DNA of 64,000 nt from Flavobacterium sp. LHD-85 (GTDB lineage: Bacteria > Bacteroidota > Bacteroidia > Flavobacteriales > Flavobacteriaceae), in contig NZ_JAVFVR010000016.1 in NCBI RefSeq assembly GCF_030929595.1, positions 62,001 to 126,000 of the forward strand, read 5' to 3'. The stretch's first letter is position 1; every line of letters starts with the position of its first letter. This document shows, piece after piece, positions 19,970 to 56,277 of this stretch. The notes beneath the pieces are model-generated. The model was not told the origin of the DNA. It was given only the letters and a program-made list of their open reading frames with translations, and made no database searches. A program made the position numbers and the translations under genes.

Positions 19970-19989
19970 TATAGTTTTCTTTGACTAAT

Positions 19990-20589
19990 ATGAAATACAG
20001 TATTTTCATTTTTATTTTTTGTTTATGCTGTTGTGTAAACAAACAACAGAATGAAAATACTGAAAAAAATCAAACAGTTATAGTGATACAGCCTTTGGGT
20101 GATTTTGAACTTAATCAATCTCAAAAAGTTTTAGCTGAAATAAAAACAATTAGCCCAAATGTTGTTTTAAGACAAAATATAGACTTTCCTAGAAATTCTT
20201 TTTACAAGCCTCGCAATAGATATCGTGCTGACAGTATTATTAAAAATCTTAAAAATAATATTGGCAATGATTCCGTGATTGTTGGGTTGTCGCATTTTGA
20301 TATTAGCACAACAAAAAACGATATTAAAGATTGGGGTGTAATGGGTTTGGGTTACATGCCAGGAACGGCTTGTGTTGTTTCGGATTTTAGATTGTCTAAA
20401 AAACACAGAAATAACCAGTTTTATAAACTAATTCTGCATGAATTAGGTCATACAGCGGGTTTGCCACACTGCAAAATTAAGACGTGTTTAATGCGTGATG
20501 CTAAAGGCGGAAACCCACTGAATGAAGAAAAAGACTTTTGTAAAAACTGTAAAAGGTTTTTAAAAAATAAGGGATGGCAATTGATTTAA
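19990..20589 (+). CDS. Archaemetzincin-like zinc protease lipoprotein
   Basis: This 199-residue protein has a Cys-rich lipoprotein-type signal (MKYSIFIFIFCLCCCVNKQQ) and a metzincin active site near the C-terminus. HELGHTAGLPHC supplies three zinc-binding His and the catalytic Glu. The following KIKTCLM and CKNC complete the pattern HExxHxxGx3Cx4CxM...CxxC of archaemetzincins (peptidase family M54). The gap before CxxC is 15 residues rather than the usual 17. Archaemetzincins are normally cytosolic, so a lipid-anchored envelope form is unusual. The ATG at 19990 is used; an in-frame TTG lies 9 nt upstream. Confidence 0.8.
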   Translation: MKYSIFIFIFCLCCCVNKQQNENTEKNQTVIVIQPLGDFELNQSQKVLAEIKTISPNVVLRQNIDFPRNSFYKPRNRYRADSIIKNLKNNIGNDSVIVGLSHFDISTTKNDIKDWGVMGLGYMPGTACVVSDFRLSKKHRNNQFYKLILHELGHTAGLPHCKIKTCLMRDAKGGNPLNEEKDFCKNCKRFLKNKGWQLI

Positions 20590-20945: not shown

Positions 20946-21028
20946 AGCCCTAGCCCTGATGGGAGCGGCATCCTTTTGTGTCCGCCACGGCGGACACAAA
21001 AGATATAGCGGACAGCAGGATCAGCTCC
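20946..21028 (-). repeat. Structured intergenic repeat with 14-bp hairpin, copy 1
   Basis: Read on the minus strand it runs GGAGCTGATCCTGCTGTCCG through a perfect stem (CTTTTGTGTCCGCC, 20973-20986, with GGCGGACACAAAAG, 20989-21002) to CAGGGCTAGGGCT. The copy at 54957-55048 has the same flanks but a different, still complementary, stem tip. Confidence 0.75.
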
Positions 21029-21081: not shown

Positions 21082-21522
21082 ATGAAAAATACTTTCATAG
21101 TTTTGTTTTGTTCGCTTTTGTTTGTGAGTTGCAAACAAGAATTAAAACCTGCAGATATTGCTAAATTGAATGGCTATTGGGAAATTGAAAAAGTAGTTTT
21201 TGAGAAAGGTGAAGAGAAGGAGTATAAAATGAACGAGACTTTTGATTTTTTTCAAATTAAGAATAATAAAGGTGTTCGAACGAAAGTGATGCCACAGTTT
21301 GATGGGACTTTTTTAACAACAGATACTTTTGAAAATGTTTCGGTTCGTTTTGCCGGAGAGCAGGTTTTCTTGGATTATAAAACAAAGTATGCAAAATGGA
21401 GTGAAGAAATTATTTCGCTTTCAGATGACAAATTAGTGGTTAAGAACCCGCAAAAGATAGAGTATCATTATAAAAAAGCTGGACCAGTAAATTTATTAAA
21501 CGATGGCGAAAAGACTAAATAA
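21082..21522 (+). CDS. Small lipoprotein of unknown function
   Basis: This 146-residue protein has a lipoprotein signal (FIVLFCSLLFVSCKQE). The body has LNGYWEIEKVVFEKGEEKEY and alternating strands, suggesting a lipocalin-like beta fold seen in many small Bacteroidota lipoproteins. It overlaps the DUF721 gene by 20 nt, so the two are probably translated from one mRNA. Function unknown. Confidence 0.8.
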   Translation: MKNTFIVLFCSLLFVSCKQELKPADIAKLNGYWEIEKVVFEKGEEKEYKMNETFDFFQIKNNKGVRTKVMPQFDGTFLTTDTFENVSVRFAGEQVFLDYKTKYAKWSEEIISLSDDKLVVKNPQKIEYHYKKAGPVNLLNDGEKTK

Positions 21523-46033: not shown

Positions 46034-46128
46034 CGATTTGCGTGAGGGATAGAAGTGGAAAGCCCGGAGCCTGACGAAGGAAGTGCGAGGACTTGTAACG
46101 AATAGCCCGACCCGGAGGGACACGCCCA
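46034..46128. repeat. GC-rich conserved intergenic element
   Basis: This ~95-nt segment runs from GATTTGCGTGAGGGATAG to CCCGGAGGGACACGCCC. It is much richer in G+C than its surroundings. Its ends can pair (GCGTG with CACGC). The wording resembles a multicopy non-coding element I associate with flavobacteria, but I cannot name its family. Confidence 0.55.
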
Positions 46129-53654: not shown

Positions 53655-54944
53655 TTACTTTTTCTTTAATTGTAAATTGTATTTTTTTACAATTTCAAGA
53701 GTCGATTTATCTCCATTAAAAACAGAATTTAAACCTTGAGGTTCTTGCGGAGGATCTGTTGTTAAAGGATCTCCTGGATTCCATTTTCCGTCTGGATGAA
53801 TTGCTTTTCCTTCGCCACCGTAACCCCAGAAATTGGCCGCTCTTAACGGACCATTGTTTTTAACGCTTTCTGCAACTCTTCCAAAAATATAGCTGTAAAA
53901 TTTATCTCTGTAAACAGAAGATGCTCCAGCATTTAGGTTTTCATTTTCTCTCGGAAGCCCAAATTCTTCAATGATAATAGGTCTTTTCAGATTATTGGCA
54001 ACTTTAATATGATCATCAATATATTTTCCAGCATTTTCTATTGTTGCAGGCATTGTAGCTTCGGCATTATCAGCTTTAAACCAGTTCCAGTTTTTTGGCC
54101 AGATATGCATCGTCAAATAATCGATGTTTGCATTTTGATGGGTTCTTTCAAAGATTTCCATGCTGTCGTTGGAACTGTTTTTTCCTTCAGAACCTGTAGA
54201 AACCAAATGATTTTTGTCTAAACTATCAATCAAATCCACAATATTGTTGAGCCATTTTGTGAATTTTGCTTCATTTTCTACAGTAAAAAGTCTAGGTTCA
54301 TTTCCGACCTGCCATGACATAATCGTGTTGTCTTCGTTGTACTTCTTTTTAGAATAAGCGTTTGTTCTGCCAATAATAAACTTGACATGATTGTTTAAAG
54401 CTTCCATGCAAGGTTCGCAGCTATGAAACTGTTCTGTATACGACATAAACTGAGGCCAAGTATTTGGCGGAATATTCGGAACCGGAACTGGACCTTTACT
54501 ATTCCATTCCAAATATTGTGACATTCCGCCCGACCATTCCCAGTTATTGGTCAAATATAAAACAGCATACATACCGCGTTTGCTCATTTCGCTGATTAGG
54601 AAATCCAATCCGTCCAATAAATCTTCGTCATATTTTCCTTGTTCATATTGCAATGCCGGACGAACTGTAAAATCGTATTTTCCGCCATCAGCGCCAACTA
54701 AAACACGTAAATTATCAATTCCGTTTTTCTTCATTAAATCCAACTCGCGTAAAAGTCTTTTACGATCGCCTATTTTTTTAGAAGCCAACATGCTTCCATA
54801 CCAATAATTGGTTCCAATATAAGCATACGGTTTATCACCTTTGTAAAATTCATTTCCTTTTACGGTAATTTTTTCCTGCGCATGACAAGCAATTGCAGAA
54901 AAAATCAAGGCAAATGAAAGGGTTTTAAAAAATCTGTTTTTCAT
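53655..54944 (-). CDS. GH5 endo-beta-1,4-mannanase
   Basis: This 429-residue secreted enzyme has a signal peptide (KTLSFALIFSAIACHAQ) and a single GH5 barrel. It resembles subfamily 7: YIGTNYWYGSMLAS, LRVLVGADGGKYDF, YLTNNWEWSGGMSQYLEW. The acid/base is Glu216 in WQVGNEPRLF and the nucleophile is Glu327 in IIIEEFGLP. It cuts internal beta-1,4-mannosidic bonds of mannan or glucomannan. It lies in the mannan operon 142 nt after the epimerase gene; the gap holds a structured repeat. Confidence 0.92.
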   Translation of the reverse strand: MKNRFFKTLSFALIFSAIACHAQEKITVKGNEFYKGDKPYAYIGTNYWYGSMLASKKIGDRKRLLRELDLMKKNGIDNLRVLVGADGGKYDFTVRPALQYEQGKYDEDLLDGLDFLISEMSKRGMYAVLYLTNNWEWSGGMSQYLEWNSKGPVPVPNIPPNTWPQFMSYTEQFHSCEPCMEALNNHVKFIIGRTNAYSKKKYNEDNTIMSWQVGNEPRLFTVENEAKFTKWLNNIVDLIDSLDKNHLVSTGSEGKNSSNDSMEIFERTHQNANIDYLTMHIWPKNWNWFKADNAEATMPATIENAGKYIDDHIKVANNLKRPIIIEEFGLPRENENLNAGASSVYRDKFYSYIFGRVAESVKNNGPLRAANFWGYGGEGKAIHPDGKWNPGDPLTTDPPQEPQGLNSVFNGDKSTLEIVKKYNLQLKKK

Positions 54945-54956
54945 AATTTATATTTT

Positions 54957-55048
54957 AAGGAGCTAATCCCGCTATCCGCTTCAATCTTTTGTGTCTCGTT
55001 AAAGAAACGAGACACAAAAGGATTTCCGCTTCTATCGGGGCTAGGGCT
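54957..55048 (-). repeat. Structured intergenic repeat with 15-bp hairpin, copy 2
   Basis: Read on the plus strand it runs AAGGAGCTAATCCCGCTATC through stem CTTTTGTGTCTCGTT (54986-55000) and AACGAGACACAAAAG (55006-55020) to CGGGGCTAGGGCT. It matches the element at 20946-21028 read on the opposite strand. It sits inside the mannan operon, upstream of the GH5 gene. The strand field is nominal. Confidence 0.78.
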
Positions 55049-55086
55049 ATACGTTCTTCAAGACGTTTTGATTTTTATTTGAAACC

Positions 55087-56277
55087 TTAATTCTCAATTC
55101 GATTAATAAGCTCCAAACAAGCACGGCCATTATGATAAGGACATTTCCAGAATCCGGCTTTATCTTTTTTCATTGTGTAATAATCGTCATAAACGCCCCA
55201 AAACCATTCTCCGTTTTTGTGGTCAATTATATGTTTTTTTATGAATTTCCAGTTTTTGTAAACGATATCTAGATATTCTTCTTTTTCAGTTAATTGATAA
55301 GCGTTGTAAAAACCAATTAAAGCTTCAGCTTGTGGCCACCAATGTTTTTCTGCAATTAATTCATCTTTTTCAGGATCAAATTCGTACCATAAACCGCCGT
55401 CAGTATCTAAACCTTCTTTGGTTACTTCTGCAATTTGAATGGCATGTTTTTTATAATTGGCAATTAAAGTTTCATTTCCTGAAATTTCGGCACACTGCTG
55501 TAAAAGCCAAGCCGCTTCAATATCATGTCCGTATGAAATAACGTCCGGTTTTTCTTTCCAGTTTTCATCGAAAAATAAGCGCAAATGTCCCGTTTGGGTA
55601 TTGATAAAATATTTTTCAATGGTTTCTAGTAATTCGATGATAGTAGCAAGCAGTTTTTCATCTTTCCAAACCTTGTATAAATTCGCATAAGCTTCAATAA
55701 TATGAAGATGCGTATTCATGGTTTTCTTTTCGTTGGCATCTTTTGCACTTAAGCGCAAATCTTCAATGGGTTGCCAATCTCTTGTAAAAGCTTCAAAATA
55801 TCCTTTGTTAGTAGGATCATAACTATGTTCCTCAATTTTTGAATATAGTTTCTTCGCAATTTCTAAAGCTCTTTCTTCATTTGAAATCGAATAATATTCA
55901 GACAATCCATAAATCGCAAAGGCTAAAGCATAAATCTGGTTTTTGGTGTCTTTTGGAGTTTTATCCTCATTAATACTCCAAAAAAGACCTCCAAATTGGG
56001 TGTCATAAAAGTAAGCTGCAAGAAACTCAAATGCCCTTTCTGCCAGTTTTTTGTGGTTTTTGTTTTTTGTGGTTTTGTAGCTGGCAGAAAACGTCCAAAG
56101 AATTCGGGCATTTAAAACCGAACCTTTTTCTGCATTGGCAATAAGATGATCGTTAAAATCGATTTGTCCGACAAAACCGCCATTTTTCTCATCTACAGTT
56201 CGTTGCGACCAATAGTTTAGAATAGAATCCAGTTCTGCGGATAATTCCGATTTTAAAAGCTTTAGTTGTAATGACAC
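55087..56277 (-). CDS. AGE-family cellobiose/mannobiose 2-epimerase
   Basis: This 396-residue (alpha/alpha)6-barrel enzyme has GGFVGQIDFNDHLIANAEKG, RILWTFSASYK, SYGHDIEAAWLLQQC and EKHWWPQAEALIGFYNAYQ. These carry the histidines that abstract the sugar proton. It inverts C2 of the reducing-end sugar, turning mannobiose into mannosyl-glucose. No signal peptide is present, so it is cytoplasmic. The start is 6 nt after the GH130 stop; the two enzymes act in sequence. Cellobiose epimerisation is an alternative, but the neighbours favour mannobiose. Confidence 0.92.
   Translation of the reverse strand: MSLQLKLLKSELSAELDSILNYWSQRTVDEKNGGFVGQIDFNDHLIANAEKGSVLNARILWTFSASYKTTKNKNHKKLAERAFEFLAAYFYDTQFGGLFWSINEDKTPKDTKNQIYALAFAIYGLSEYYSISNEERALEIAKKLYSKIEEHSYDPTNKGYFEAFTRDWQPIEDLRLSAKDANEKKTMNTHLHIIEAYANLYKVWKDEKLLATIIELLETIEKYFINTQTGHLRLFFDENWKEKPDVISYGHDIEAAWLLQQCAEISGNETLIANYKKHAIQIAEVTKEGLDTDGGLWYEFDPEKDELIAEKHWWPQAEALIGFYNAYQLTEKEEYLDIVYKNWKFIKKHIIDHKNGEWFWGVYDDYYTMKKDKAGFWKCPYHNGRACLELINRIEN

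Follow-up and report, generated by a model that had tools for sequence, protein, structure and literature searches.

A Flavo-1 hairpin of Flavobacterium, probably an interspersed structured repeat, and the differing tips of its copies at orthologous sites

The Flavo-1 RNA motif (Rfam RF01705) was predicted in 2010 (Weinberg et al., PMC2864571, in its passages on this motif), is typed as an sRNA gene by Rfam and, in excerpts of PMC9029176, is counted with the commonest sRNA families of bacteria. In the open-access literature (bioRxiv not covered) we found neither a paper accounting for Flavo-1 nor a published description of an exchange of its tips. Integron attC sites are recognised by structure as a folded single strand, in which unpaired bases are conserved and the apical part is variable. 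For REPINs, excerpts of PMC3116915 state that pairing capacity and length outweigh interior sequence, and report compensatory changes. According to excerpts of PMC2229807, ERIC, IRU and RU-1 are MITE-like repeats of about 100–200 bp; their transcripts would fold into long stem-loops that contain A-G mispairs.

The Flavo-1 copies of the window

The window, by which we mean the whole 64,000-nucleotide stretch of Flavobacterium sp. LHD-85 DNA that was analysed, contains two hairpins that the initial annotation had described as one element present on opposite strands. This description holds, as RF01705 matches both above its gathering cut-off of 42 bits; the hairpin of interest (copy 1) thus belongs to a known family and is not new. 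The features referred to below are listed here.

54961..55046, minus strand: Flavo-1 copy 1 (RF01705 by cmscan, 80.8 bits, E 2.7e-16, full model 1-76)
54949..55060, minus strand: copy 1 with its flanks, 3' box AGCTCCTTAA and 5' box TAGCCCTAGCCCC (from position-wise information content)
53655..54944, minus strand: 429-aa gene just downstream of copy 1 (ORF)
55087..56277, minus strand: GlcNAc 2-epimerase family gene just upstream of copy 1 (PF07221)
20948..21026, plus strand: Flavo-1 copy 2 (RF01705 by cmscan, 70.1 bits, E 2.3e-13)
19981..20589, plus strand: peptidase family M54 gene upstream of copy 2 (PF07998)
21082..21522, plus strand: lipocalin-like gene downstream of copy 2 (PF13648)
46035..46128, plus strand: two-armed divergent copy, the third in the window (RF01705 34.6 bits over 46035-46116, below the cut-off of 42)

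Copy 1 (plus-strand sequence of 54959-55048, GGAGCTAATCCCGCTATCCGCTTCAATCTTTTGTGTCTCGTTAAAGAAACGAGACACAAAAGGATTTCCGCTTCTATCGGGGCTAGGGCT) ends 16 nt from the start codon of the 429-aa gene, whose product has no Pfam match at 0.001 and which we take to resemble a mannan endo-mannosidase. It consists of the foot CCCCG/CGGGA, the inner arm GGAAATCC/GATTGAAGCGG and the tip hairpin CTTTTGTGTCTCGTTTCTTTAACGAGACACAAAAG with loop TCTTT, and RNA folding of the Rfam strand gave a z of -5.2, none of 200 shuffles being equally stable. Copy 2, first noted at 20946-21028, ends 55 nt from the start codon of the lipocalin-like gene and has the foot CCCTG/CAGGA, with T-A where copy 1 has C-G, the inner arm GGCATCC/GATATAGCGG and the tip GTGTCCGCCACGGCGGACAC. 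Its z on the Rfam strand is -3.2, again with 0 of 200 shuffles equally stable, and its single-sequence MFE structure contains the apical stem and lacks the family's basal stem. On comparing the two sequences, the outer boxes and the CTTTTGTGTC/GACACAAAAG stem proved common to both, as had been noticed at the outset, and the tips (TCGTT/AACGA versus CGCC/GGCG) indeed differ in sequence while each pairs. The difference was nonetheless drawn too narrowly, since the inner arms GGAAATCC..GATTGAAGCGG and GGCATCC..GATATAGCGG also differ coordinately, and the change therefore exceeds the tip. Likewise the two settings, which had been called unrelated, do have different flanking genes, but both copies are placed sense between co-directional genes; this placement is no rule across the 92 copies considered below.

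Of the described systems, RF01705 itself resembles our copies in that its model of sequence and structure fits them at full length (80.8 and 70.1 bits) and in being of Bacteroidetes. With REPINs and REPs, Flavo-1 has in common dispersed extragenic hairpins with conserved arms; it is palindromic, with an interior that is free but paired. It differs in that no RAYT linkage was found, in taking the form of a single long hairpin interrupted by G.A internal loops, not of a demonstrated REP doublet, and in an interior that differs as a cassette at orthologous sites. Like ERIC and other MITE-like elements it is a structured repeat with A-G mispairs and many copies per genome, whereas TA termini, a terminal inverted repeat and target-site duplication are not established here, the taxon is different and tip cassettes are exchanged. 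The likeness to attC sites would be one of analogy only.

Base pairing and the folding strand

Flavo-1 is built from a conserved foot, comprising a CCCYG/CRGG stem and internal loops in which G.A and A.G oppositions are conserved, and from an apical stem-loop whose stem sequence is free provided that pairing holds. A rigid skeleton with free columns caught 226 unique elements, so that copies broken at the fixed positions are absent from the covariation counts; covariation was tested at pairs of free columns, among which n5-n11' never varied. The three variable basal pairs are Watson-Crick in 110, 109 and 105 of the 111 unique elements that came from loci outside the pattern scan, compared with 51–60 expected under independence (50.6, 60.4 and 57.8) and with 68, 73 and 77 of 111 in the best of 2000 shuffles. 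For example, n10-n6' is A-T in 78 elements, T-A in 16, G-C in 14, C-G in 1 and another combination in 2 (n = 111). An internal control in the same helix, n12-n4', which belongs to the model's internal loop, stayed at the level of chance (21 of 111; 23.2 expected). Elements fetched by the pattern agree (114, 113 and 104 of 115), although the pattern itself favours some columns. The consensus helices are thus kept by covariation at these three pairs; pairing survives change of sequence, as the initial annotation proposed, and among the 111 unique copies it is clearly not broken as often as it is kept.

Tip stems of at least 6 pairs, at 75% Watson-Crick or more, are present in 213 of the 226 elements, and the parsed elements contain 157 distinct tips. 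Because the tip parser demands at least 75% Watson-Crick pairs, its count of 1657 of 1770 is too favourable to pairing. Most loops have five bases (TCTTT in 58, GGGTT in 45 and CCTTT in 14 of 213). Preserved pairing in the differing tips had been read as direct evidence that the fold matters. The covarying basal pairs support the importance of the fold; the tip difference, however, need not reflect base-by-base compensation, since tips are mostly replaced by already-paired hairpins (see next section), so that by itself the tip difference says less about selection on the fold than had been assumed at the outset. Better evidence for such selection comes from the basal pairs.

Mismatches are unequal in frequency: tip stems of the 157 distinct tips have 48 G.T against 9 A.C, and basal pair n15-n1' has 15 T.G against 2 C.A in the 226 elements. 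RNA tolerates G.U, and in DNA G.T is tolerated more than A.C. This imbalance therefore hints at single-stranded folding of the Rfam strand and not of its complement, with the qualification that the G.T excess is uncorrected for relatedness and that mutation bias could contribute to it. A free-standing TTCTTNTGAAA...GCTYCT module was considered and rejected: the sequence scanned gave a single match, located inside an element.

Hairpin tips at orthologous sites and the two-armed variant

Orthologous sites of the copies in the window's genome (G000) were located in two relatives, G006 and G015, with flanks 76–96% identical. Both flanks were found in 57 comparisons, some with one flank match short or distant from the element (e.g. 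loci L012 and L028). The covariance model recognises the element in both genomes in 34 of them (26 sites) and finds no match in 23, a class that includes visibly degenerate elements such as L036 and L045 in G015. The tip differs in 21 of these 34, although foot and flanks persist, and is kept in the other 13. In these 21, identity averages 0.62 in the tip and 0.91 in the foot, with about 87% in the flanks; 'differing' denotes an apical identity below 0.85, our own cut, and L018 and L024 (0.82) are partial changes. Both tips fold (at least 8 standard pairs) in 17 of the 21, the other four being L041 and L048 in G015 and the third window copy in each of its two comparisons. Leaving aside five comparisons beside rRNA operons, where upstream flanks are repeated (L011, L016 twice, L018, L024), 17 of 29 differ.

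The site of copy 1 is one example. In G006, foot and flanks are kept and the tip is CTTTTATGGTGGGGTTCACCATAAAAG in place of CTTTTGTGTCTCGTTTCTTTAACGAGACACAAAAG. This 35-nt CTTTTGTGTCTCGTTTCTTTAACGAGACACAAAAG tip recurs at three other sites, in G015, in a further relative (G008) and in F. tagetis, while the G006 tip recurs at a different site of the window's genome (L007) and in F. bizetiae. Likewise, a 53-nt cassette is found at two sites of G000 and one of G015. Many differing tips have no exact match elsewhere in the sequence searched, and hence no donor was found for them. A single compensated change was seen too, one A-T to T-A pair at L036 in G006. At these sites tips change mainly as whole hairpins, often together with the inner arm next to them, for which ectopic gene conversion between copies would be the simplest explanation. 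We postulate that tips are replaced by such conversion, or by other recombination between copies, with the conserved feet serving as homology, and that the fold is kept because it would be needed when one specific strand is single-stranded.

A process that dispenses with selection on the fold could also yield perfect stems: Flavo-1 would then be a passive architectural element or recombination hotspot, with template switching at quasi-palindromes. At L306 of G015 the TCGTTTCTTTAACGA tip seen at L004 carries its loop reversed (TAAAGAAA), a hairpin tip inversion that is a possible product of template switching, and pairing in the apical stems is almost perfect, a property for which the parser itself selects. 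Against this, basal pairs covary across the conserved internal loops that lie between them, template switching would not be expected to produce the conserved bases of those loops or the loop pentamers, and cassettes are common to different sites and species. We consider template switching highly improbable as the explanation.

In the 23 comparisons lacking a covariance model match, the intergenic stretches inspected do not align neatly, and remnants of a degenerate Flavo-1 are visible in some; among the stretches inspected from the 57 comparisons, none was an intact empty site of the kind that marks a clean insertion. The intergenic region upstream of orthologs of the 429-aa gene is occupied in G015 by another hairpin repeat, of TCATTGCGAGGAACGAAGC type (L082), and in G008 by a TCATTGCGAGGAACGAAGC-type repeat fused to the 3' part of Flavo-1 (L083); in both genomes the gene upstream of this intergenic region differs from that in the window. 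At four loci (L045, L046, L296 and L306) a second hairpin (GATTACTTCACT...AGTGAACT..CG) is inserted within one arm of the Flavo-1 core.

In the third window copy, the outer stem is GCGTG/CACGC, arm 1 resembles Flavo-1 and arm 2 is short (CCC GGA GGG). Its MFE structure is a three-way junction, but with a z of only -0.4 it is no better than shuffles. A pattern for the 5' end of this variant gave 21 matches in G000 (up to 2 mismatches; reversed control 0), about 16 of which we judged by eye to be elements, and a 16-base pattern (one mismatch) was found in 131 of 150 genomes of the genus (reversed control 8). Two-armed loci include L332, L336, L342, L344, L345, L351-L354 and L364; at nine two-armed loci no Rfam family reaches its cut-off. 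When 17 variant elements from seven sites were folded, 14 gave a three-way junction, which is missing or partial at L332, L344 and L359 (the L360 ortholog was not extracted). The second arms are hypervariable yet paired, and arms differ at orthologous sites with pairing kept. At one site compared in four genomes there are two unrelated kinds of long second arm, one in G000 and, with a compensated change, in G006, the other in G015 and G008. At another site, in G015, arm 1 is a relative of the 53-nt cassette and arm 2 a mini-hairpin.

Taken further, Flavo-1 and the GCGTG...CACGC variant may form one superfamily of 'chassis', either a foot or a three-way junction, that carry interchangeable hairpin cassettes. 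Each arm would be swapped on its own at a fixed site within a short evolutionary span, mostly as a unit that is already paired. Such recombination, which may pass through folded ssDNA or RNA, would operate in most Flavobacterium species and yield textbook covariation through the exchange of cassettes. We put this forward tentatively, as an idea with somewhat less than even prospects.

Dispersal, gene context and candidate partners

Flavo-1 is abundant well beyond the window. The window's genome has at least 52 matches, 49 of them above the cut-off (best 150 of 1620 candidates scored with the covariance model). A match is present in 140 of 150 sampled genomes of the genus (best 29 candidates per genome scored) and in 26 of 40 relatives, the count per genome ranging from 0 to at least 88 (best 89 candidates scored); as only the best candidates were scored in these whole-genome Rfam searches, the copy numbers are minimum values. 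Among the 40 relatives, Flavo-1 is present in three genera of the order in addition to its own genus. Named genomes hold at least 119 pattern-matching stretches, including Chryseobacterium, Epilithonimonas and a MAG labelled Chitinophagales. Carriage by phages or plasmids was rejected: viral contigs had no Flavo-1 match in a pattern scan, and plasmids and phages had no blastn match to 121 bases around copy 1.

We examined gene context for 92 copies, 52 from G000 and 40 from five other genomes, with ORF-based gene calls in which 7 copies overlap short ORFs of 70–94 aa. Copies are mostly intergenic: 35 lie sense between co-directional genes (++) and 22 antisense (--), 15 are convergent, 15 divergent and 5 at contig edges. 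Gene direction shows no significant preference (++ versus --, 35:22, p 0.11), and the 92 copies have no consistent position or orientation upstream of genes of the kind that marks a cis-regulatory leader. In G000, -- copies have a median score of 44.9 bits (n = 9) and ++ copies 71.9 bits (n = 20; p 0.04, uncorrected). Position-wise information content in 223 upstream and 221 downstream sequences shows that conservation fades about 5 nt ahead of AGCC, with a weak remainder as far as -27, and some 15 nt past the core. No upstream motif is conserved beyond about -27 in the 223 sequences, and downstream, in the 221, there is no conserved T-run but A-rich sequence instead; sequence conservation thus provides neither the promoter nor the terminator that an sRNA gene would have of its own.

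These data bear on two readings based on transcripts. In the first, Flavo-1 is a genuine, ERIC-like RNA element that works through its fold, in mRNAs or as small RNAs, for example by altering the stability or processing of mRNA between co-directional genes, the epimerase and mannosidase-like genes being such a pair. The G.T over A.C ratio (48:9) lies on the Rfam strand, copies 1 and 2 are both sense between co-directional genes, and the slight ++ excess and the lower -- scores lean slightly towards a transcript role. Excerpts of a F. psychrophilum transcriptome study (PMC9723704) report that several 5' transcribed regions coincide with Flavo-1, but also that copies seem to be sense or antisense indistinctly, with many outside transcribed regions. 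Here, too, convergent and divergent placements are equal, -- contexts are common and no promoter or terminator is conserved; we regard an RNA element of this sort as unlikely, if well worth bearing in mind. The second reading, a bidirectional terminator or transcript-end element, goes back to the suggestion that copies map to transcript ends. The hairpin is stable on folding, and the long arm-2 hairpins of the two-armed variant, flanked by A and T runs at some sites (L342 and L344), resemble terminators. In TTTT...AAAA tip stems, however, the T run falls inside the 5' arm, the sequence after the element is A-rich with no T-run, and convergent placements are not enriched over divergent ones, so that neither mark of an intrinsic terminator is present. 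On orientation and the absent T-run we reject such a role and give it next to no credence.

Copy 1 is therefore probably best regarded as a Flavo-1 copy that forms part of an interspersed structured repeat of the Flavobacteriales, and not as a conventional sRNA gene or cis-regulatory leader. Pairing kept while the tip is replaced at fixed sites argues for such a repeat rather than an ordinary sRNA gene, and orientation neutrality, tip replacement and the two-armed relatives fit it better than does Rfam's sRNA type. If this holds, sRNA counts in Bacteroidetes are inflated, and covariation tests need caution where paired cassettes swap whole.

Dependence on a Y1 (RAYT) transposase was considered as a present-day requirement. 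PF01797 has no match at E 0.001 in four genomes, G004, G011, G029 and G030, which carry at least 88 (G004), 44 (G011) and 29 or more (G029 and G030) Flavo-1 copies. Conversely, a regular expression for the Flavo-1 core found it in 2 of 20 stretches of 3.5–5 kb around Y1/RAYT-like genes, the stretches having been chosen from the Y1-transposase match list. We rejected the requirement on these grounds, and with them Flavo-1 falls outside the REPIN/RAYT systems. A lagging-strand ssDNA transposition signature was rejected as well, there being no replication-strand bias (69 versus 81 among 150 of 200 matches listed in three single-contig genomes, with the terminus assumed opposite dnaA). The best reading is a REPIN- or ERIC-like interspersed repeat with no RAYT partner detected. 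As neither a clean insertion nor a partner protein was found, we infer mobility from dispersal. By analogy with REPINs, a putative trans-acting protein would most likely recognise the folded ssDNA or RNA during copying or dispersal. If Flavo-1 is an interspersed repeat with exchangeable hairpins, what recognises or copies them, be it a protein or a process, becomes a concrete, testable question.

Some copies of G000 are clustered, at C11:62508-75484 (L034) and C20:22005-32045 (L035), and belong to one Flavo-1 subfamily (CAGTGCAAATCC); two of the clustered copies have near-identical flanks, which suggests a duplicated segment. ORFs around these copies on C11 and C20 were viewed by eye for an autonomous element. 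Other copies adjoin rRNA genes: at three contig starts (L011, L016 and L018) Flavo-1 lies about 670–730 nt upstream of 16S rRNA genes, and at L038 about 100 nt after a 5S gene. Counterparts of the rRNA-adjacent copies are present in G006, some with different tips.
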